Assembly (NCBI GenBank): GCA_019136545.1
Contig: JAGVUA010000119.1
Location: forward strand, 5,524 to 41,826
Direction: 5' to 3'
Length of the DNA: 36,303 bases
DNA from: Betaproteobacteria bacterium
GTDB lineage: Bacteria > Pseudomonadota > Gammaproteobacteria > Burkholderiales > Rhodocyclaceae
Shown: piece after piece, positions 20,936 to 29,131 of the stretch
Layout: each line of letters opens with the position of its first letter
Position numbering within the stretch: the first letter of the stretch is position 1
Position numbers and translations under genes: made by a program
Notes under the pieces: generated by a model
What the model was told of the DNA's origin: nothing
The model's input: the letters and a program-made list of their open reading frames with translations, nothing else
The model's database searches: none

Positions 20936-23248
20936 ATGATACGGCCAGATTCATCCGGGCAACCCGTCCAGCGGGACATGGCACCGGCAGCACCGTCGGA
21001 GCCCTGGCGCACCGCCCTGGCTGACTTTCTTCTGCCGGACGAGCCGCCCGTCGCCTGGGTGGCCGTCGATCTCGACAGCCGGCTTCGCTTCGGACAAGGC
21101 GTGATCGTGGTCACCGATCGCCGGATCGCCTCGCGCGACGCGGTCGATGGCGAATGGCAGGCGTGGGATTTCCGGCCGGGCATGGCGCTGCAGAGCTTCG
21201 ACCATGGCGGCGTCGGCACCCTCGAATTGCGCGACGGCGAACGGCGCCTGGCATGCTGGCGCTACACGCTGGCGCAGGACATCGCGGTCCATCGTCTCGC
21301 CGAGCAGTTCGCGCACCAGTTGGCAAGCGCGCTCACCGGCCGGCCGGTCGAATGCGAGACCGAATCCCTGTGTCCGCAATGCAAGGCGCCCCTGGCGCCG
21401 GGCGAAGAAGAATGCCCGATCTGCGCGCGCGAAATCCACACGCCGCCCTCGACCTGGACCCTGCTGCGTCTGTGGCGCTTCGCCAAGCCCTACCAGGGGC
21501 AGCTGCTCGCCGGTTTCCTGCTGACCCTGGCCGCCACCGCGGCGACGCTGGTGCCGCCCTATCTCACCATGCCGTTGATGGACGACATCCTCATCCCGTA
21601 CCAGAACGGCAAGCCCATCGACGCCGGCCTGGTCACGCTCTACCTCGGCGGCCTGCTGGCCGCCGCGCTGCTGGCCTGGGGGCTGGGCTGGATCAAGACC
21701 TACATCCTGGCGCTGGTGTCCGAGCGCATCGGCCGCGACCTGCGCACCACCACCTTCGAGCACTTGCTGAACCTGTCGCTCGAGTACTTCGGCGGCAAGC
21801 GCACCGGCGATCTGATGGCGCGCATCGGTTCGGAAACCGACCGCATCAACGTCTTCATCTCGCTGCACCTGCTCGACTTCGCCACCGACGTGCTGATGAT
21901 CGCCATGACGTCGGTGATCCTGTTTTCCATCAACCCCTGGCTGGCGCTGGTGACGCTGCTGCCGCTGCCGGTGATCGCCTGGCTGATCCACGTCGTGCGC
22001 TTCAAGCTGCGCACGGGCTTCGAGAAAGTCGATCGCGTCTGGGCCGAGGTGACCAACGTACTGGCCGACGTCATCCCCGGCATCCGCGTCGTCAAGGCCT
22101 TTGCGCAGGAGCGGCGCGAGGCCGAGCGCTTCCGCGAGGCCAACCGCCACAACCTCGCCATCAACGACCGCCTGAACAAGACCTGGTCGCTGTTTTCGCC
22201 GACGGTGTCGCTGCTGACCGAGATCGGCCTGTTGGTGGTCTGGGCCTTCGGCATCTGGCAAGTGGCGCACGACCAGATCACCGTCGGCGTGCTTTCGGCG
22301 TTCATCGCCTACATCAGCCGTTTCTACACGCGGCTGGAGTCGATGAGCCGCATCGTGTCGGTGACCCAGAAGGCGGCCGCCGGCGCCAAGCGCATTTTCG
22401 ACATCCTCGACCACGTCTCGAGCGTGCCGGAGCCGGCCAACCCCGTCCATCTCGACAAGGTCAGCGGCCGCATCGAAGTGCGCGATGCCGGCTTCCGCTA
22501 TGGCAACCGCGCCGTCATCCGCGGCGTGGCCATCGACATCGCACCGGGCGAGATGATCGGCCTGGTCGGCCACAGCGGTTCGGGCAAGAGCACCATGGTC
22601 AACCTGATCTGCCGTTTCTACGACGTCAGCGAAGGCTCGATCCGCCTCGACGGCGTGGATATCCGCTCGCTGCCGGTGGCGGAGTATCGTCGCCATATCG
22701 GCCTCGTCCTGCAGGAGCCGTTCCTGTTCTTCGGCACCATTGCCGAGAACATCGCCTACGGCAAGCCGGCGGCGACGCGCGACGAAATCATCGCCGCCGC
22801 CCGTGCCGCGCACGCCCACGAGTTCATCCTGCGCCTGCCGCACGGCTACGACTCGCTGGTCGGCGAACGCGGGCAGGGCTTGTCCGGCGGCGAGCGCCAG
22901 CGCATTTCCATCGCCCGCGCGTTGCTGATCGATCCGCGCATCCTGATTCTCGACGAAGCCACCTCGTCGGTCGATACCGAAACCGAGAAGGAAATCCAGA
23001 AGGCCCTGGACAACCTCGTGCGCGGCCGCACCACCATCGCCATCGCCCACCGCCTGTCGACGCTGCGCAAGGCCGACCGGCTGGTGGTCATGGATCGTGG
23101 CGTGGTGGTGGAAACCGGCAGCCATGAAGCCTTGATGGCGCGCGAGGGCCACTATTACCGGCTTTACCAGGCACAGGCGCGGAACGTCGACACTGAAATG
23201 GAAATCCGCGGCCTGGGCGCGGAGGAGAAACTGCATGTCGGCGCCTGA
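20936..23248 (+). CDS. ABC exporter (fused TMD-NBD) of the cyanophycin-associated type, with N-terminal zinc ribbon
   Basis: 770 residues. An extra N-terminal domain (about 20-140, WVAVDLDSRLRFGQGVIVVTDRR) is followed by a zinc ribbon, Cys146-x2-Cys149 and Cys160-x2-Cys163 (CPQCKAPLAPGEEECPICA). An exporter-type membrane domain covers about 180-475 with six likely helices. The ATPase has Walker A GHSGSGKST (545-553), signature LSGGERQRIS and Walker B ILILDEATSS, all intact. The architecture matches the ABC transporters annotated beside cyanophycin genes in betaproteobacteria. Substrate and direction are not established; export is inferred from the fold. It is divergent from cphA'-cphA and overlaps the DUF1854 gene by 14 bases. 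An alternative start is the ATG at 20978. Confidence 0.88.
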   Translation: MIRPDSSGQPVQRDMAPAAPSEPWRTALADFLLPDEPPVAWVAVDLDSRLRFGQGVIVVTDRRIASRDAVDGEWQAWDFRPGMALQSFDHGGVGTLELRDGERRLACWRYTLAQDIAVHRLAEQFAHQLASALTGRPVECETESLCPQCKAPLAPGEEECPICAREIHTPPSTWTLLRLWRFAKPYQGQLLAGFLLTLAATAATLVPPYLTMPLMDDILIPYQNGKPIDAGLVTLYLGGLLAAALLAWGLGWIKTYILALVSERIGRDLRTTTFEHLLNLSLEYFGGKRTGDLMARIGSETDRINVFISLHLLDFATDVLMIAMTSVILFSINPWLALVTLLPLPVIAWLIHVVRFKLRTGFEKVDRVWAEVTNVLADVIPGIRVVKAFAQERREAERFREANRHNLAINDRLNKTWSLFSPTVSLLTEIGLLVVWAFGIWQVAHDQITVGVLSAFIAYISRFYTRLESMSRIVSVTQKAAAGAKRIFDILDHVSSVPEPANPVHLDKVSGRIEVRDAGFRYGNRAVIRGVAIDIAPGEMIGLVGHSGSGKSTMVNLICRFYDVSEGSIRLDGVDIRSLPVAEYRRHIGLVLQEPFLFFGTIAENIAYGKPAATRDEIIAAARAAHAHEFILRLPHGYDSLVGERGQGLSGGERQRISIARALLIDPRILILDEATSSVDTETEKEIQKALDNLVRGRTTIAIAHRLSTLRKADRLVVMDRGVVVETGSHEALMAREGHYYRLYQAQARNVDTEMEIRGLGAEEKLHVGA

Positions 23249-23705
23249 TTTCACGCTGTCGCGCAATGCCTTCGGGCGGCTCGTCTATGCGGGGAGCGAC
23301 GGCCGGACGGAGGAAGGCGTCATGCCGGTACGCGCCTTCCCGCTTTCGGCGCCGGACGAGCGCATCGCCATCGTCGGCGCGGACGGCCATGAACTGGCCT
23401 GGATCGACCGTCTGACCGATATCGCCGGCGACGCGCGCGCCCTGCTCGAGGAGGAATTGGCCAGGCGCGAGTTCATGCCGGAGATCCGGCGCATCCGCGG
23501 CGTGTCCAGTTTTGCGACGCCGAGTACCTGGCAGATCGAAACGGATCGCGGCGAGACGTCGATGGTGCTCAAGGGCGAGGAAGACATCCGGCGCCTGGGC
23601 AGGACGTCCCTGCTGATCGCCGATAGCAACGGCATCCATTTCCTGATTCGCGACCTGGCGGCGCTCGATCGCGCCAGCCGGAAACTGCTGGATCGCTTTC
23701 TGTAA
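23235..23705 (+). CDS. DUF1854-family protein, cyanophycin-associated
   Basis: 156 residues, soluble, no signal peptide. Typical DUF1854 features are the start FTLSRNAFGRLVY, VMPVRAFPLSAPDERIAIV, the acidic GHELAWIDRL, and the C-terminal EEDIRRLGRTSLLIADSNG..FLIRDLAALD. The start overlaps the ABC transporter end by 14 bases, so the two are coupled and probably act together. In other genomes this family is repeatedly found with the transporter and cyanophycin genes (established association as I recall it). Its biochemical role is unknown; a cytoplasmic accessory or regulatory subunit of the transporter is a reasonable inference. No catalytic motif is visible. Confidence 0.85.
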   Translation: MSAPDFTLSRNAFGRLVYAGSDGRTEEGVMPVRAFPLSAPDERIAIVGADGHELAWIDRLTDIAGDARALLEEELARREFMPEIRRIRGVSSFATPSTWQIETDRGETSMVLKGEEDIRRLGRTSLLIADSNGIHFLIRDLAALDRASRKLLDRFL

Positions 23706-23721
23706 ACCGACGGAGCCCGAC

Positions 23722-24165
23722 ATGCGCTTCCCGATTGCCGCTGCCGCCACGCTCGGCGTGTTGCCATCACTGACTTTCGCTGCGCCGGAATTGCCGGTCA
23801 TCGAACTGACGGCCGGCATGCATCGCATCGAGGCGGAAGTCGTGAATACCCAGGAAAGCCGCATGCGCGGCCTGATGATGCGCCAGTCGATGCCAACGCA
23901 TCGCGGCATGCTGTTCGTTTTCGACGCCGACGCCCGCCATTGCATGTGGATGAAGAACACCCTGCTGCCGTTGGCCGTGGCGTTTCTCGACGGCCAGGGC
24001 CGCATCATCAACGTCGAGGAAATGCGGCCGCAGACCGAGGACAACCATTGCGCGGCCAAGCCGGCGCGTTACGCGCTCGAAATGAATGCGCAGTGGTTCA
24101 GCAAGCGCGGGCTCGGTGCCGGCATACCGCTGCTCGGCATCGAACGCGCGCCGCCGCCGCGCTGA
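23722..24165 (+). CDS. Exported DUF192-family protein
   Basis: 147 residues with a signal peptide of about 21 residues (FPIAAAATLGVLPSLTFA then APE), so it is periplasmic. The DUF192 core follows: VEVVNTQESRMRGLMMRQSM-type segment, GMLFVFDADARHCMWMKNTLLPL and a final ALEMNAQWFSKRGLGAG. Cys74 and Cys112 are present. The family is small and widespread with no firm biochemical role. It starts 16 bases after the DUF1854 gene, so it is likely cotranscribed, but a link to cyanophycin is not shown by family knowledge and may be incidental. Confidence 0.85.
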   Translation: MRFPIAAAATLGVLPSLTFAAPELPVIELTAGMHRIEAEVVNTQESRMRGLMMRQSMPTHRGMLFVFDADARHCMWMKNTLLPLAVAFLDGQGRIINVEEMRPQTEDNHCAAKPARYALEMNAQWFSKRGLGAGIPLLGIERAPPPR

Positions 24166-24230: not shown

Positions 24231-25538
24231 TCAGGCAAAGCTGTCAGACATCAGCGTGTTGAACCACTTGAGCATTTCCTCGTAGTTGTCCTTCGAGCGG
24301 CTGGCGGCCTCGGTCGCGGCGCCGCCCACCACCTTCATCGTGCCGGTGGCGGCATCGAATCCGAATACCGCGGTCAGCCAGGAAGCCGTGTCGGCCGTGA
24401 TCGGCGAGTAGCACGACGAGTTCGTCACCGGCGATGGATCGGGATTCTTGCCGGCAAAAGCGCGCACCATGGCGTCGGCGCAAACCTTGGCCTCCTGGTT
24501 GGCGATGTGGCCGGCCTTCGGCTGTGTGGTGGCGGACGCATCGCCGATGACGTGCACACCGGCGATGTGGTTGGCCTCGTAGGTGAGCACGTTAACGCCG
24601 GTCCAGCGTCCGCCGACGTCGGCCAGTCCGTTGTCGGTGATCACCGCGCCGGCCCGCTGCGGCGGAATCACGTTGATGACGTTGGCGTCCACGCGCCCGA
24701 GGTTCGTGTAGACGCTCATCGAGCCGGTATCGACGTGGTCGATGACCGCGTTGGTGTAGTACTGGATGCCATGCAGTGCGAAGCCCTCCAGGAACGCGTT
24801 CGGCTCGGCCATGATCTTCGGATTGGCGTCCAGCACGATGACGCGCGCGCCGGGCTTGTTGCGCCTCAACCAGTCCGCCACCACGCAGGCGCGTTCGTAC
24901 GGCCCCGGCGGGCAGCGATACGGCGCTGCCGGAATGCTCATGACGAACGCGCCATTGTTCGGCATGGCCGCGATCATGTTGCGCAAGGCGGTCGTTTGCT
25001 GGCCGGCCTTCCAGGCATGGGGCACCTTGGCCTGAGCCTCCGCGGTCTCCAGGCCCGGCACGGTCTCGAAGTCGATGCCGGGCGACAGCACCAGTTTGTC
25101 ATAGGCGAGGAGGGTGCCGTCGGCAAGCGTGATTTTCCGGCCGACCGGGTCGATGGCGACCACGTTGCCCTGCATCATCCTGATGCCATATTTGTTGGCC
25201 AGATTGCCGTAGCCGTATTGCAGCGACTGAACCGTGCGCTGGCCGTTGAGGACCAGGTTGCTCATGATGTTGGACGTATAGACCGGCTCGCGCTCGACCA
25301 GCGTGACATCCACGCCGGTGCCGCCCCACATGCGCAAGTACTTGGCGACCGTGGCGCCGCCCATGCCGCCGCCGATGACGACGACTCTGCCCTTGACCCC
25401 GGCGATGGTAGGCACGACCGCGGCGGCAGCCGACGTGGTGCGACGCTTGTCGGCAGCGGCAAAACCGCTCCAGCCAGCCGCCGTCATGCCGACGCCCGCA
25501 CTGCTCAACAGCTTGATGAAATCACGACGTTTGATCAT
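24231..25538 (-). CDS. fccB: Sulfide dehydrogenase (flavocytochrome c) flavoprotein subunit
   Basis: 435 residues. The Tat signal MIKRRDFIKLLSSAGVG (twin Arg4-Arg5) sends it to the periplasm. FAD-binding Rossmann motif RVVVIGGGMGG at 51-61; active-site region PYRCPPGPYERAC with Cys209 and Cys218; a further Cys376 in NSSCYSPI of the C-terminal FCSD flavin-binding domain. In the family a cysteine pair near FAD handles sulfide sulfur. The enzyme oxidises sulfide and passes electrons through the cytochrome subunit FccA encoded 11 bases upstream. Its start is the ATG at 25538; a longer frame would overlap fccA out of frame. A terminator-like hairpin follows. Confidence 0.93.
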   Translation of the reverse strand: MIKRRDFIKLLSSAGVGMTAAGWSGFAAADKRRTTSAAAAVVPTIAGVKGRVVVIGGGMGGATVAKYLRMWGGTGVDVTLVEREPVYTSNIMSNLVLNGQRTVQSLQYGYGNLANKYGIRMMQGNVVAIDPVGRKITLADGTLLAYDKLVLSPGIDFETVPGLETAEAQAKVPHAWKAGQQTTALRNMIAAMPNNGAFVMSIPAAPYRCPPGPYERACVVADWLRRNKPGARVIVLDANPKIMAEPNAFLEGFALHGIQYYTNAVIDHVDTGSMSVYTNLGRVDANVINVIPPQRAGAVITDNGLADVGGRWTGVNVLTYEANHIAGVHVIGDASATTQPKAGHIANQEAKVCADAMVRAFAGKNPDPSPVTNSSCYSPITADTASWLTAVFGFDAATGTMKVVGGAATEAASRSKDNYEEMLKWFNTLMSDSFA

Positions 25539-25549
25539 CTCGCCTCTCC

Positions 25550-25852
25550 TTAGCGGGCCAGTTTGGCAAAGTAGTCGGCGATGAGCTTGATCTGCGCATC
25601 GGTATAGCCGCGGGCGTGGACATCCATCATCTCGGGCGGATTCTCCCGGCGCATCTCCTGTATCTCCTTGACGATTTCGCTGGAAGACATTCCGGCCAAA
25701 CGCTCGAAGCCGCCGCTGCCGTTGGTGCCATGGCACTGGAAGCAGTTGGAGGCGAGCAGGCGGCCGGGAACCTCGACGGCCGAAGTGGTCTGCGCATGTG
25801 CCGCGGCGGGTGCCAAGGCCAGCGCGACGAGACTGCCTAATGTGCGATTCAT
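25550..25852 (-). CDS. fccA: Monohaem cytochrome c subunit of sulfide dehydrogenase
   Basis: 100 residues. A signal peptide ends near residue 20 (LALAPAAAHA-QT). One haem site, Cys37-Phe-Gln-Cys40-His41, with a candidate distal Met74/Met75 in NPPEMMDVHARGYTD, and a closing helix LIADYFAKL. This is a small class I cytochrome of the FccA monohaem type, as in Chlorobium; diheme FccA proteins are about twice as long. It takes electrons from FccB's FAD and passes them to the respiratory chain. AAGGAG lies a few bases before the ATG at 25852. First gene of fccA-fccB, divergent from the GlrK-like kinase gene. Confidence 0.9.
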   Translation of the reverse strand: MNRTLGSLVALALAPAAAHAQTTSAVEVPGRLLASNCFQCHGTNGSGGFERLAGMSSSEIVKEIQEMRRENPPEMMDVHARGYTDAQIKLIADYFAKLAR

Positions 25853-25961: not shown

Positions 25962-26056
25962 GACATGGCGCGGATCGCATTGTCGGGAACGCGGATTATT
26001 ATTTGCACTGTCGCTGCTTCCCAACACATAAGCTTTCATTGCCGGGGTCGCCTACG

Positions 26057-27481
26057 ATGGCTACTGTGAAACAGCTGTACCCGCGTTCCCTGTTGCGCCT
26101 GATTGTGCTGGGCAACGTGCTGGTGGCCTTGCCGCTGCTGGTCGCCATCGCCTATGTGTTCATCAACATGGATCGCGTCACGGCGCGCGGCGAAGCCCTC
26201 ACGCGTCAGGCGGCGCTCGCGGCGCAGAACGGCTACGAGCTGCCGGAGGACCTGGTGCACATGGAGCGCCTGTTGCGCCAGTATGCGGTACTGAAGGAGC
26301 CTTCGCTGCTCGAGGACTACAACCAGGCGCGCCAGGATTGGATGAAGATTTGCCGTGCTTTCGCCGATTTGCCGCTGCTGGACGACTTGCGCGCCGAGGT
26401 GGTCGACATGCTGGCGTTCGAAGCCGCTGCCTTCGCCGACTTCCAGGAAGGCCGCAAGAGCGGCGCGGAACTGGAGATCGTGCTCAGCGACTTGAAATCG
26501 CGCATACCCAAACTGGTGGCCCGATCCAGCCAGATCGTCAGCCGCGAGGTCGAAACATTCCGCACCGATGCCGATGCGCTGCGCGGCCGCCTGTTGCTGG
26601 CCCTGGCCGTCGGCTTGACGATGATGGCGCTGTTCTTTCTGTTCAGCCGCCTGCTGCTGGCGCGCGTGCTGTGGGGCTTCGAGAGCGCGGTGCAAGCGCT
26701 GGGCGAAGGGAGGCTGGACAGGGAAATCGTGCTCAAGGGGCCGCGCGACATCCGCGAGATGGGCGAGCGGCTCGACTGGCTGCGAAGGCGTCTGCTCGAA
26801 CTCGAGGAGCAGCGCATTCTGGTGTTGCGCCACGTCTCGCACGAATTGAAGACGCCGCTGGCGGCGTTGCGCGAGGGCGCCAGTCTGTTGACCGAAGGCG
26901 CCGTCGGCCCCTTGACGCCCGGCCAGGAAAAGATCGTCGGCATCGTCCGCGGCAATGCCTTGCGACTGCAGAACCTGATCGACAGCCTGCTCAAGCTTCA
27001 GCAGGCGGGGCACGCCGGCGAACGGATCAAGCCGGTGCGCCTGCGTCTCGACAAGCTGGTGCAGCAGATCGTCACTACGCACCAGCTCACGGCCCGGGGC
27101 AAGGAGCTGCATTTCTCCGGCTCGCTGAAGCCGCTGGTGGTGGTGGGCGGCAAGGAGGAGCTGACGACGGTGGTGGATAATCTCATCTCGAACGCCATCA
27201 AGTATTCGCCCGAGGGGGGCACGGTGGACATATCGTTGACGCGCGAAGAGGACAAGGTGACGCTGGACGTCGTTGATCAAGGCCCGGGAATACCGGAACC
27301 GGACCGGGAGCGCGTGTTCGAACCGTTCTATCGCGGCGAGCACGCCAAGGGCGTGGCCGGCGTCGGTCTCGGGCTGGCCATTGCCCGACAGTTCGCGGCA
27401 GCCAATCGCGGCGTGCTGGAGCTGCTGGCGTCCGCCAGCGGTTCGCATTTTCGGCTGACGCTGCCGGGTGGCGCGGCATGA
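26057..27481 (+). CDS. glrK: Membrane sensor histidine kinase, GlrK/QseE-like
   Basis: 474 residues: membrane helix 1 at about 15-36 (LIVLGNVLVALPLLVAIAYV), a periplasmic helical region about 40-175, helix 2 at about 178-200, HAMP-like linker (LWGFESAVQALGEGRLDREI), H-box RHVSHELKTPLAAL with phospho-acceptor His262, N-box NLISNAIKYSPEGG, G1 DQGPGIP and G2 GVGLGLAIA. The gene order kinase, small lipoprotein, response regulator is that of glrK-qseG-glrR in enterobacteria, where the system responds to envelope conditions. The ATG at 26057 is preferred to an upstream start at 26003 because the membrane helix then sits near the N-terminus. Its stop overlaps the lipoprotein ATG (ATGA). Its partner regulator here is unusual (see glrR entry). 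Confidence 0.87.
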   Translation: MATVKQLYPRSLLRLIVLGNVLVALPLLVAIAYVFINMDRVTARGEALTRQAALAAQNGYELPEDLVHMERLLRQYAVLKEPSLLEDYNQARQDWMKICRAFADLPLLDDLRAEVVDMLAFEAAAFADFQEGRKSGAELEIVLSDLKSRIPKLVARSSQIVSREVETFRTDADALRGRLLLALAVGLTMMALFFLFSRLLLARVLWGFESAVQALGEGRLDREIVLKGPRDIREMGERLDWLRRRLLELEEQRILVLRHVSHELKTPLAALREGASLLTEGAVGPLTPGQEKIVGIVRGNALRLQNLIDSLLKLQQAGHAGERIKPVRLRLDKLVQQIVTTHQLTARGKELHFSGSLKPLVVVGGKEELTTVVDNLISNAIKYSPEGGTVDISLTREEDKVTLDVVDQGPGIPEPDRERVFEPFYRGEHAKGVAGVGLGLAIARQFAAANRGVLELLASASGSHFRLTLPGGAA

Positions 27482-27846
27482 TGCGCGCATTCGCGATACT
27501 GCTGGGCCTGGCGCTCGCGGGCTGCGCTTCCGTCGAACCGGCGTCTGTTCCGGCGCCGCCGCCGGCCGTCGTCGGGTCCGGTCAGGGGCATGACGTCCGG
27601 GCGCCGGTGGTGGACCCGGCAAAGGACGAGGCCGTGATCCGGGAGCTGCGCCAGCAGGTCGACCGCCTGACGGCGCAATTGGCCGACGCCCAGCGCCGGC
27701 AGGCGAGTCTCAACGAGGACCATCGGCGCAGCGAGGCGGCCCTGCGCGAAAGCCAGCGCAAGGTCGACGAACTGCAACAGAAGCTGGATGCGCTGCTGGC
27801 CATCGACCGCGATACCCGTCGTCGGCCCAAGACATCGGCCAAGTGA
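27478..27846 (+). CDS. qseG: QseG-like lipoprotein
   Basis: 122 residues with a lipoprotein signal, LALAGC, and lipidated Cys16. A Pro/Ala-rich linker follows, then a coiled-coil helix from about 55 to 110 (RELRQQVDRLTAQLADAQRR and on) and a basic tail. It lies between the kinase and regulator genes, overlapping the first by four bases and ending one base before the second. Enterobacterial QseG occupies the same place and binds the kinase in the periplasm. Sequence similarity is too weak to see by eye, so the name rests on position, lipobox and coiled coil. Confidence 0.65.
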   Translation: MMRAFAILLGLALAGCASVEPASVPAPPPAVVGSGQGHDVRAPVVDPAKDEAVIRELRQQVDRLTAQLADAQRRQASLNEDHRRSEAALRESQRKVDELQQKLDALLAIDRDTRRRPKTSAK

Positions 27847-27847
27847 C

Positions 27848-29131
27848 ATGACACGCGCCCGCGTTCTCGTTGTCGACGACGATCCCGACCTGCTGCACCT
27901 GATCGGCTTGCGGCTGTCCTCGGCCGGTTATGCCGTCAGCCAGGCGGCCTCGGGCGAGGAAGCGCTGCGCCAGTTCCACGCCGAGCAGCCCCAGGCGGTC
28001 ATCACCGACCTGCGTATGGACGGCATGGACGGCCACGCCTTGTTTGCGCGCCTGCATGAAGCCGCGCCGAGCATGCCGGTGATCATCCTCACCGCCCACG
28101 GCACGATTCCCGACGCGGTGGCCGCGACGCAGCGCGGCGCCTTCGGCTTTCTTACCAAGCCGTTCGATGGCCAGGAACTGCTCGAGCGGGTGGGCGCTGC
28201 CGTGGCGGTTTCGCCGCCGGTGCGCGCGACCAGCGACGACGGGCAGTGGCGCCAGGCCATCGTGTCGCGCAGCGTGGTCATGGACGAGTTGTTGCGCCAG
28301 GCGCGGCGCGCCGCCGACGAAAGCGGCCCGCTCCTGATCGTCGGGCCGGTCGGTGCGGGCAAGGCCACGCTGGCGCGCGCGATTCACGATGCCGGGCCGC
28401 GCCGGCAGGAGTCCTTCGTCGCGCTGGCCTGCGACAGCCTGGCCGAGGCGGATCTGGAGAAGCAACTCACGGGCGGCGAGGCCTTGCGCGCCGCCGAAGG
28501 CGGCACGCTGTTCATCGACAAGGTGGAGCGTCTTGGCGCAGTCGCCCAAGCCCGGCTGCTGGCGCTGGTGCATGTCGCCACGACGCTGTTCGGGCGGGGC
28601 AAAGGCAGCCTGCCCGATCTCCGGGTGATCGCCACCAGCGCCGCGCCGCTGGAAAAACTGGCCCGCGAAGGAGGATTCCGTCCCGATCTCTACTACGCGC
28701 TGGCGGCGTCCACCCTGAAAGTGCCCGCCCTCACCGAGCGCGCCGAGGACATTCCCTTGCTGGTGGCGCATTTCGTCGATCGCCACGGGGGCGACCGGCG
28801 CCTGTCGCCCGAGGCGCAGACGGCCTTGCTCGAGGCTTCCTGGCCCGGCAACGTCGGACAGTTGCGCAGCGTGGTCGAGCAGGCGCTCAACCAGTCGGTG
28901 ACGCCGCTGGTACCGGCCTCACTCGTGCAGAAGGTGCTGCAGGAGGGCGCGGAACAGGGGTTCACCGCCTTCGACGAGGCGCGGCGCGGTTTCGAGCGCG
29001 ATTACCTGATCCGCCTGCTCGAAGCCACGCGCGGCAACGTCGCCAAGGCCGCGCGCGTCGCCCAGCGCAATCGCACCGAGTTCTACAAACTGCTGGCGCG
29101 GCACGATATCGATCCGGCCGCGTTCAAGTAG
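27848..29131 (+). CDS. glrR: GlrR/QseF-like response regulator with degenerate sigma-54 activator domain
   Basis: 427 residues. The receiver is intact: Asp10-Asp12, phospho-acceptor Asp54, Lys104. The AAA+ domain (about 140-345) is altered. Walker A is GPVGAGKA (166-173). The segment expected to hold the sigma-54 contact motif GAFTGA is missing: the chain goes from DLEKQL through TGGEALRAAEGG straight to Walker B, about 14 residues shorter than usual. Walker B reads GTLFIDKVE, so the catalytic Glu is Lys225, and in FRPDLYYALA the second arginine of FRxDLYYRL is Ala284. The C-terminal helix-turn-helix (GNVAKAARVAQRNRTEFYKLL) is kept. It should bind DNA but not drive sigma-54 promoters, so it may act on sigma-70 promoters or as a repressor. 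The ATG at 27848 lies one base after the lipoprotein stop. Confidence 0.85.
   Translation: MTRARVLVVDDDPDLLHLIGLRLSSAGYAVSQAASGEEALRQFHAEQPQAVITDLRMDGMDGHALFARLHEAAPSMPVIILTAHGTIPDAVAATQRGAFGFLTKPFDGQELLERVGAAVAVSPPVRATSDDGQWRQAIVSRSVVMDELLRQARRAADESGPLLIVGPVGAGKATLARAIHDAGPRRQESFVALACDSLAEADLEKQLTGGEALRAAEGGTLFIDKVERLGAVAQARLLALVHVATTLFGRGKGSLPDLRVIATSAAPLEKLAREGGFRPDLYYALAASTLKVPALTERAEDIPLLVAHFVDRHGGDRRLSPEAQTALLEASWPGNVGQLRSVVEQALNQSVTPLVPASLVQKVLQEGAEQGFTAFDEARRGFERDYLIRLLEATRGNVAKAARVAQRNRTEFYKLLARHDIDPAAFK

Follow-up and report, generated by a model that had tools for sequence, protein, structure and literature searches.

The response regulator encoded at positions 27848–29131 (+) of the window, the 36,303-nt stretch of Rhodocyclaceae DNA analysed here, is a GlrR-derived protein without the GAFTGA motif, and it probably works as a phosphorylation-controlled, class II-like activator which has exchanged sigma-54 for the housekeeping sigma-70 polymerase, judging by sequence comparison. 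A more far-reaching reading, on which we are slightly more doubtful than convinced, is that the whole system was rewired from one ancestral Rhodocyclaceae GlrR: the sigma-54 contact and ATPase residues would have been lost once, the -24/-12 promoter dropped, and the unchanged operator placed in the middle of a symmetric sigma-70 promoter reading both ways, with each -10 element at 24 nt, linking the signalling operon with genes for electron transfer of the sulfide/flavocytochrome or multiheme type.

The regulator ORF is genuine and codes for 427 aa comprising a receiver (residues 4–118), a degenerate AAA+ domain (138–350) and a helix-turn-helix (HTH) domain (375–427). Response_reg (109.8 bits), Sigma54_activat (87.6) and AAA_lid_14 (53.2) were detected above the Pfam cut-offs, with HTH_8 marginally under its own (21.6 vs 22 bits). 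The top NCBIfam model is GlrR PRK15115 with 405 bits over residues 3–427, the equivalog cut-off being 763; whole-length similarity and the tree with intact GlrR indicate that the protein belongs to the GlrR/QseF family. All the residues named in an earlier note made from the DNA letters were confirmed by an alignment with E. coli GlrR (NC_000913) and 27 relatives, namely Asp54 and Lys104 of the receiver, which are invariant across the alignment, the missing GAFTGA, Lys225 and Ala284. The GAFTGA segment is deleted, and the position of the missing L1/GAFTGA loop, according to the alignment with E. coli GlrR, is around residues 201–216 (28448–28495, +). Walker B is represented by D224-K225, and FRxDLYYRL reads FRPDLYYAL, with Ala284 replacing the second arginine-finger Arg. 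Absent from the earlier note were the change of the sensor II Arg to Gly337 and the retention of G166, G169 and K172 of Walker A. The replacements of the Walker B Glu by Lys and of the finger Arg by Ala make the loss of ATP hydrolysis in the window regulator likely; nucleotide binding may remain, since Walker A is kept and the Walker B Glu is found in 5 of 20 relatives. With no GAFTGA loop, an incomplete catalytic set and no -24/-12 promoter, the protein does not look like a working sigma-54 activator and would fit the class of GAFTGA-less activator-type proteins, the L1 loop being lost and the rest activator-like.

Relatives of GlrR were searched for at two levels, the order (300 genomes) and the family (199), resulting in 1e-60 matches in 123 and 109 genomes, respectively, among which the GAFTGA status was read in 47 aligned proteins and ten short-span matches. 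GAFTGA is missing from 22 of the 47 aligned proteins, belonging to 20 genomes of one family (the window's own genome counted), two of which, G440 and G454, have two degenerate proteins each; the other 25 possess GAFTGA or a close form, e.g. GAFSGA. The ten short-span matches from the order and family searches revealed no more GAFTGA losses, as all of them read GAFTGA or GSFTGA. An additional degenerate relative with 54% identity was found in HGW-Betaproteobacteria-7 (L115), bringing the number of degenerate genomes to 21. In a tree built on receiver and HTH columns only, from which the fragment L103 was excluded, the remaining 21 degenerate rows form one clade against 25 intact ones (support 98/96), and the degenerate state is one change on this tree. 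The deletion, for which the earlier note had asked whether it is clade-wide, is thus found in 22 of 22 degenerate proteins, and the same region altered throughout the clade with the flanking domains conserved is, on this comparison, more than chance. None of the relatives restores GAFTGA in another arrangement; such an arrangement would, by the same note, have spoken against its claim. The window's own genome (assembly 94.8% complete) revealed no further, intact glrR, the next best match having 36% identity. Three genomes (G334, G391 and G472) hold both degenerate and intact GlrR, and G454 has a partial copy of the second type at a contig end (L101). G440 carries the degenerate kinase and regulator genes twice, in near-identical form, each time on a short contig (C106 and C192).

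A pseudogene confined to this one genome, or a fault of sequencing or assembly, is a negligible explanation. The assembly does consist of 162 contigs, and Lys225 and Gly337 are private to the window genome, but 19 other genomes show this loss too, in in-frame ORFs with no stops and, in several cases, in assemblies of one or few contigs; these 19 genomes rule out assembly error as the cause of the GAFTGA loss.

Within the clade the second finger arginine is absent in 18 of 19 degenerate proteins. At the second Walker B position, the full-length degenerate rows other than that of the window (20) read D 13 times, E five times, and G and Q once each. Full Walker A is present in all but one relative. 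Five degenerate proteins from the window's genus (L043, L044, L054, L102 and L103) retain part of the segment preceding GAFTGA together with Walker B DE, which suggests an intermediate stage of loop loss.

The mean pairwise identity of degenerate vs intact proteins (19 vs 10 rows) is 77 vs 67% for the receiver, 75 vs 71% for HTH and 48 vs 71% for the AAA+ core. The ratio of the AAA+ core distance to that of receiver and HTH is 3.17 (bootstrap 2.33–4.09) in the degenerate proteins vs 0.84 (0.63–1.02) in the intact ones, i.e. the degenerate core evolves 3.8 times faster, relative to receiver and HTH, than that of intact GlrR; for the lid the ratios are 2.34 and 0.98. Such strongly raised distances, along with catalytic residues varying between members, would be expected if the AAA+ domain were merely decaying, leaving a receiver-plus-HTH protein with a passive middle linker and an operator geometry inherited without function. 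This is nevertheless improbable, as the dN/dS of the AAA+ core is only 0.02–0.30 in nine close degenerate pairs (0.04–0.22 in seven intact pairs), therefore not that of a pseudogene domain, and selection on the degenerate core appears to be relaxed but purifying, not neutral. Also against decay, residues G166, G169, K172, Q234, L237, R298, D301, W332 and G334 are each found in 21 of 21 degenerate rows, the promoter elements described below are unchanged while their spacers have diverged, and the AAA+ fold, with a short L1 loop, is confidently predicted by AlphaFold2 (mean pLDDT 89, pTM 0.74). The top PDB matches of the model are NtrX 5m7p (E 1.5e-29, the best by E-value) and NtrC1, and the best full-length fold agreement among the best 50 matches listed is with VpsR 7v2b_A (TM by query 0.59, rmsd 5.9).

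The regulator gene is preceded by genes coding for a GlrK-like histidine kinase (26066–27481, +), whose GTG start at 26066 was assigned by homology with relatives (in-frame ATG at 26057 and TTG at 26003), and a QseG-like small lipoprotein (27478–27846, +) with a LAGC lipobox, coiled-coil-like character and no family match above cut-off. The lipoprotein was assigned by its place, lipobox and weak similarity, and in several relatives there are tblastn matches to it in the interval from kinase to regulator. Throughout the degenerate genomes that were searched, the kinase gene is located just upstream of the regulator gene, and panC adjoins the system in the window and is linked to it nowhere else. 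The divergent neighbour is a gene for a small c-type cytochrome (FccA-like; 25550–25852, -), with a gene for an FccB-like flavoprotein possessing FCSD_central and FCSD-flav_bind domains (24231–25535, -) downstream of it. According to tblastn, this pair is divergent from the kinase in the window and in G020, G150, G248, G307, G315, G391, G429, G450 and L115; in G334, G362, G364, G371 and G472, a 4Fe-4S/FAD oxidoreductase precedes the kinase and a membrane-protein gene follows the operator. All these 15 redox-linked genomes (10 and 5) have the divergent promoter described below. In six others (G359, G380, G405, G440, G454 and G470), no fcc-like pair, oxidoreductase or promoter was detected in the stretch covered, which is short for G440 and G454, and no redox genes were found in any of the eight intact loci tested. 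Further along, at 23235–24165, the window contains a DUF1854 ORF past an ABC exporter ORF, and a DUF192 ORF.

E. coli GlrR/QseF binds TGTC-N10-GACA, as given in PMC8745638, and TGTN12ACA is described in three sites upstream of glmY in PMC6075780; in the E. coli genome, three exact TGTC-N10-GACA sites lie 117–230 bp upstream of glmY. This published consensus was searched for in the window before any alignment of upstream regions. A predicted operator with one mismatch (TGTCGCTGCTTCCCAACA) is located at 26009–26026 (+), where the cytochrome and kinase genes diverge, and is one of 17 sites with no more than one mismatch in the window vs 10.1 expected. Within 300 bp upstream of the kinase, an exact operator is present in 8 of 21 degenerate loci vs 0.10 expected, and in 11 of 21 vs 1.99 expected with one mismatch allowed; seven of the eight exact sites and two one-mismatch copies, including that of the window, share the same position. 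Upstream of intact glrK, there is no exact operator in any of 11 loci, the sites there being located after glrR.

Two -10-like elements flank the window operator, namely TACGAT (26053–26058, +), 26 nt past the operator and 7 nt ahead of the kinase GTG start, and GACAAT (25979–25984, -), 24 nt from the operator and directed at the cytochrome gene. With the stricter motif TGTCGYN5CCCGACA, 35 sites were obtained from 22 of 28 genomes, and 30 of these sites were aligned with their flanks (those of G307:C97, G412:C11 and G334:C33 and two in G362 were left out). TANNAT, a pattern noticed post hoc in the first set of sites, occurs exactly 24 nt past GACA in 11 of the 30 sites vs 0.07 expected (none of 2000 shuffles exceeding 2), and two more sites have it at 26 nt. 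Such sites are found directly ahead of the kinase in G020, G150, G248, G307, G315 and G450 (24 nt) and in G391 (26 nt), and ahead of the membrane protein gene heading the redox operon in G334, G362, G371 and G472, where they are on the kinase contig, and in G364, where the operator is on another contig; the 24-nt spacing had been defined without these five redox-operon sites. Fourteen core promoters were taken, one per genome, including the one-mismatch sites of the window (26 nt) and G429 (24 nt) and leaving out two sites with no left element, L199 (G440), where TANNAT is at 26 nt, and L198 (C142 of the window's own genome), where it is at 22 nt. Opposite-strand NANNAT is situated exactly 24 nt to the other side in all 14 core promoters vs 0.14 expected. 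The left element is [GC]ANNAT, not TANNAT, and thus a weak -10. Both elements also surround the operator of L115, which was not used earlier.

A two-way promoter with the operator ahead of the operon and TANNAT at 24 (or 26) nt is therefore present in 15 of 21 degenerate genomes, the window included, although these promoter blocks are homologous by descent and the genome counts are not independent events. The window operator itself deviates by its one mismatch and its right-hand spacing of 26 instead of 24 nt. The six degenerate genomes mentioned above, four of which (G359, G405, G440 and G470) are from the window's own genus, yielded no operator upstream of the operon; only a short upstream stretch was covered in G440 and G454. 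NANNAT was found 24 nt to the left only in four of 18 non-core sites (L190, L203, L218 and L219), which are possibly one-way targets or chance matches. Among the 44 exact TGTC-N10-GACA sites of the window's own genome, all but one of which are inside long open frames, none has the two-sided geometry and NANNAT at 24 nt occurs on 2 of 88 sides; no further target was found there, with TANNWT at 23–26 nt on either side in none of the 44. A control set of 97 sites from E. coli and the named loci has one element on 11 of 194 sides and both only in L114 (on the contig of G307) and L115.

The nearest relatives outside the clade, intact betaproteobacterial GlrR proteins (44–54% identity), have GAFTGA or GAFSGA, and their loci differ from those of the degenerate clade in often possessing paired operators and TGGCAY-N5-TTGC after glrR. 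Exact operators are present shortly past glrR in many intact loci, 12 of them (L029, L032, L037, L038, L064, L065, L120, L122, L127, L132, L137 and L148) as pairs 64–70 bp apart. Among 19 aligned regions following intact glrR, exact TGGCAY-N5-TTGC is found in 14 and a near form in five; in the window's family, 9 of 11 intact loci have this sigma-54 promoter pattern, and of the other two, one is at a contig end and one has a mismatch. The pattern precedes small, often exported-looking ORFs, which are predicted to be the GlrR target in these bacteria. No degenerate locus contains exact TGGCAY-N5-TTGC, whether among the 18 short ones, the 21 longer ones (4–9 kb) or the nine named ones; in the window there are two matches with one mismatch, vs 5.9 expected, and none that is exact. 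The intact arrangement, with operator and sigma-54 promoter just past glrR, was found in none of the 21 degenerate loci. The surroundings of the operator thus differ as the two polymerases require, with remote paired sites and -24/-12 elements in the intact loci and a single promoter-proximal site in the degenerate ones. It is very improbable that the regulator still touches sigma-54 via another surface or in a heteromer with another intact activator: its own genome does have an intact rpoN and encodes several other activator-type proteins, but the operator is promoter-proximal and, as set out above, both the motif and the promoter pattern are gone. The claim in the earlier note of a GlrR relative without sigma-54 contact is supported by the clade-wide loss and by the lack of the pattern in all 21 degenerate loci and the window.

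Its further suggestion, a phosphorylation-controlled sigma-70 activator or a repressor, gains support from the same two observations and from the operator beside -10-like elements. Class II-like activation with sigma-70, operating in both directions, offers the simplest account, and repression is its main rival. The regulator would then be a sigma-70 repressor, or a dual regulator repressing when unphosphorylated, whose operator overlaps both -35 regions and blocks polymerase. We consider this unlikely, though it deserves more weight than the other alternatives. Relative to either predicted start site, the operator covers roughly positions -54 to -37, and several GAFTGA-less relatives repress some promoters, e.g. 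Caulobacter NtrC according to PMC10274813. However, there is no clear -35 hexamer 15–19 nt from -10, the best matches being 2–4 of 6 with no shuffle control, and no conserved -35 was seen at these promoters, which therefore look activator-dependent; the fixed 24-nt spacing is what direct contact would need, and receiver, kinase and lipoprotein are all retained. The operator geometry appears to favour activation over repression.

Activation by the regulator can be outlined as follows. The clade has lost the GAFTGA loop and most catalytic residues with receiver and HTH staying conserved, the sigma-54 promoter past glrR has disappeared from degenerate loci, and the ancestral TGTC-N10-GACA operator has been kept and now lies between two divergent -10-like elements, all these steps being seen in the aligned loci. 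The GlrK-like kinase would phosphorylate Asp54 and thereby favour the binding of the operator by a dimer or small oligomer of the regulator, which, centred near -45 of each start, would recruit sigma-70 polymerase in a class II manner to promoters without a recognisable -35. It would drive its own kinase-lipoprotein-regulator operon one way and the cytochrome/flavoprotein (fccAB-like) pair in the other direction. The kinase mRNA is predicted to be leaderless, since the distance from TANNAT to the start codon is 7 or 9 nt in all ten promoters directly ahead of the kinase, the window included, which leaves no room for a ribosome-binding site. The AAA+ remnant is probably a structural, perhaps nucleotide-binding, oligomerisation module.

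The E. coli GlrK-QseG-GlrR system has the same gene order of kinase, lipoprotein and regulator, its GlrR is 59% (receiver) and 62% (HTH) identical to the window regulator, and the operator sequence TGTC-N10-GACA is common to both, with one mismatch in the window. In contrast to the window regulator, E. coli GlrR possesses GAFTGA together with all ATPase residues and activates the sigma-54 promoter of glmY from its three remote sites, where the window operator lies beside -10-like elements; E. coli has glmY, and the window system has redox neighbours instead. VpsR of Vibrio cholerae, with 25% identity to the window regulator, is also a GAFTGA-less activator-type protein acting at sigma-70 promoters; it responds to c-di-GMP and is not known to be part of a kinase operon, and the window receiver, by comparison, keeps Asp54 and Lys104. 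NtrC of Rhodobacter capsulatus and Caulobacter has likewise lost the L1/GAFTGA loop and acts at sigma-70 promoters with Asp phosphorylation being of importance, as PMC10274813 describes, but it belongs to the alphaproteobacterial NtrC family with independent deletions. The same paper reports that R. capsulatus NtrC needs ATP binding rather than hydrolysis and that in Caulobacter NtrC residues for both ATP binding and hydrolysis matter (PMC10274813). NtrX, HupR, TyrR and DhaR are activator-family proteins without a working sigma-54 contact, according to PMC3162934 and PMC10274813; they are separate families, none of them GlrR-derived.

No paper on a GAFTGA-less GlrR, on GlrR in Rhodocyclaceae or on a GlrR-derived clade whose promoters changed accordingly was found in the open-access literature searched. 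The GlrR-derived variant and the promoter switch look new, and GAFTGA-less activators as a kind are already known owing to the precedents NtrC, HupR, TyrR, DhaR and VpsR (PMC10274813 and PMC3162934). Such activators are known singly, and cases in which the joint change of a sigma-54 regulator and of its promoters can be seen are rare. Intact and switched systems here share one operator sequence and occur in close relatives, and the promoter change is precise enough for a test by shifting a few bases. For the degenerate clade, 'sigma-54-dependent GlrR' is a wrong annotation, and its loci point to redox genes, not envelope targets. If true, the rewiring would present both the trans and the cis sides of a switch from sigma-54 to sigma-70 in one clade, with both systems side by side in some genomes.
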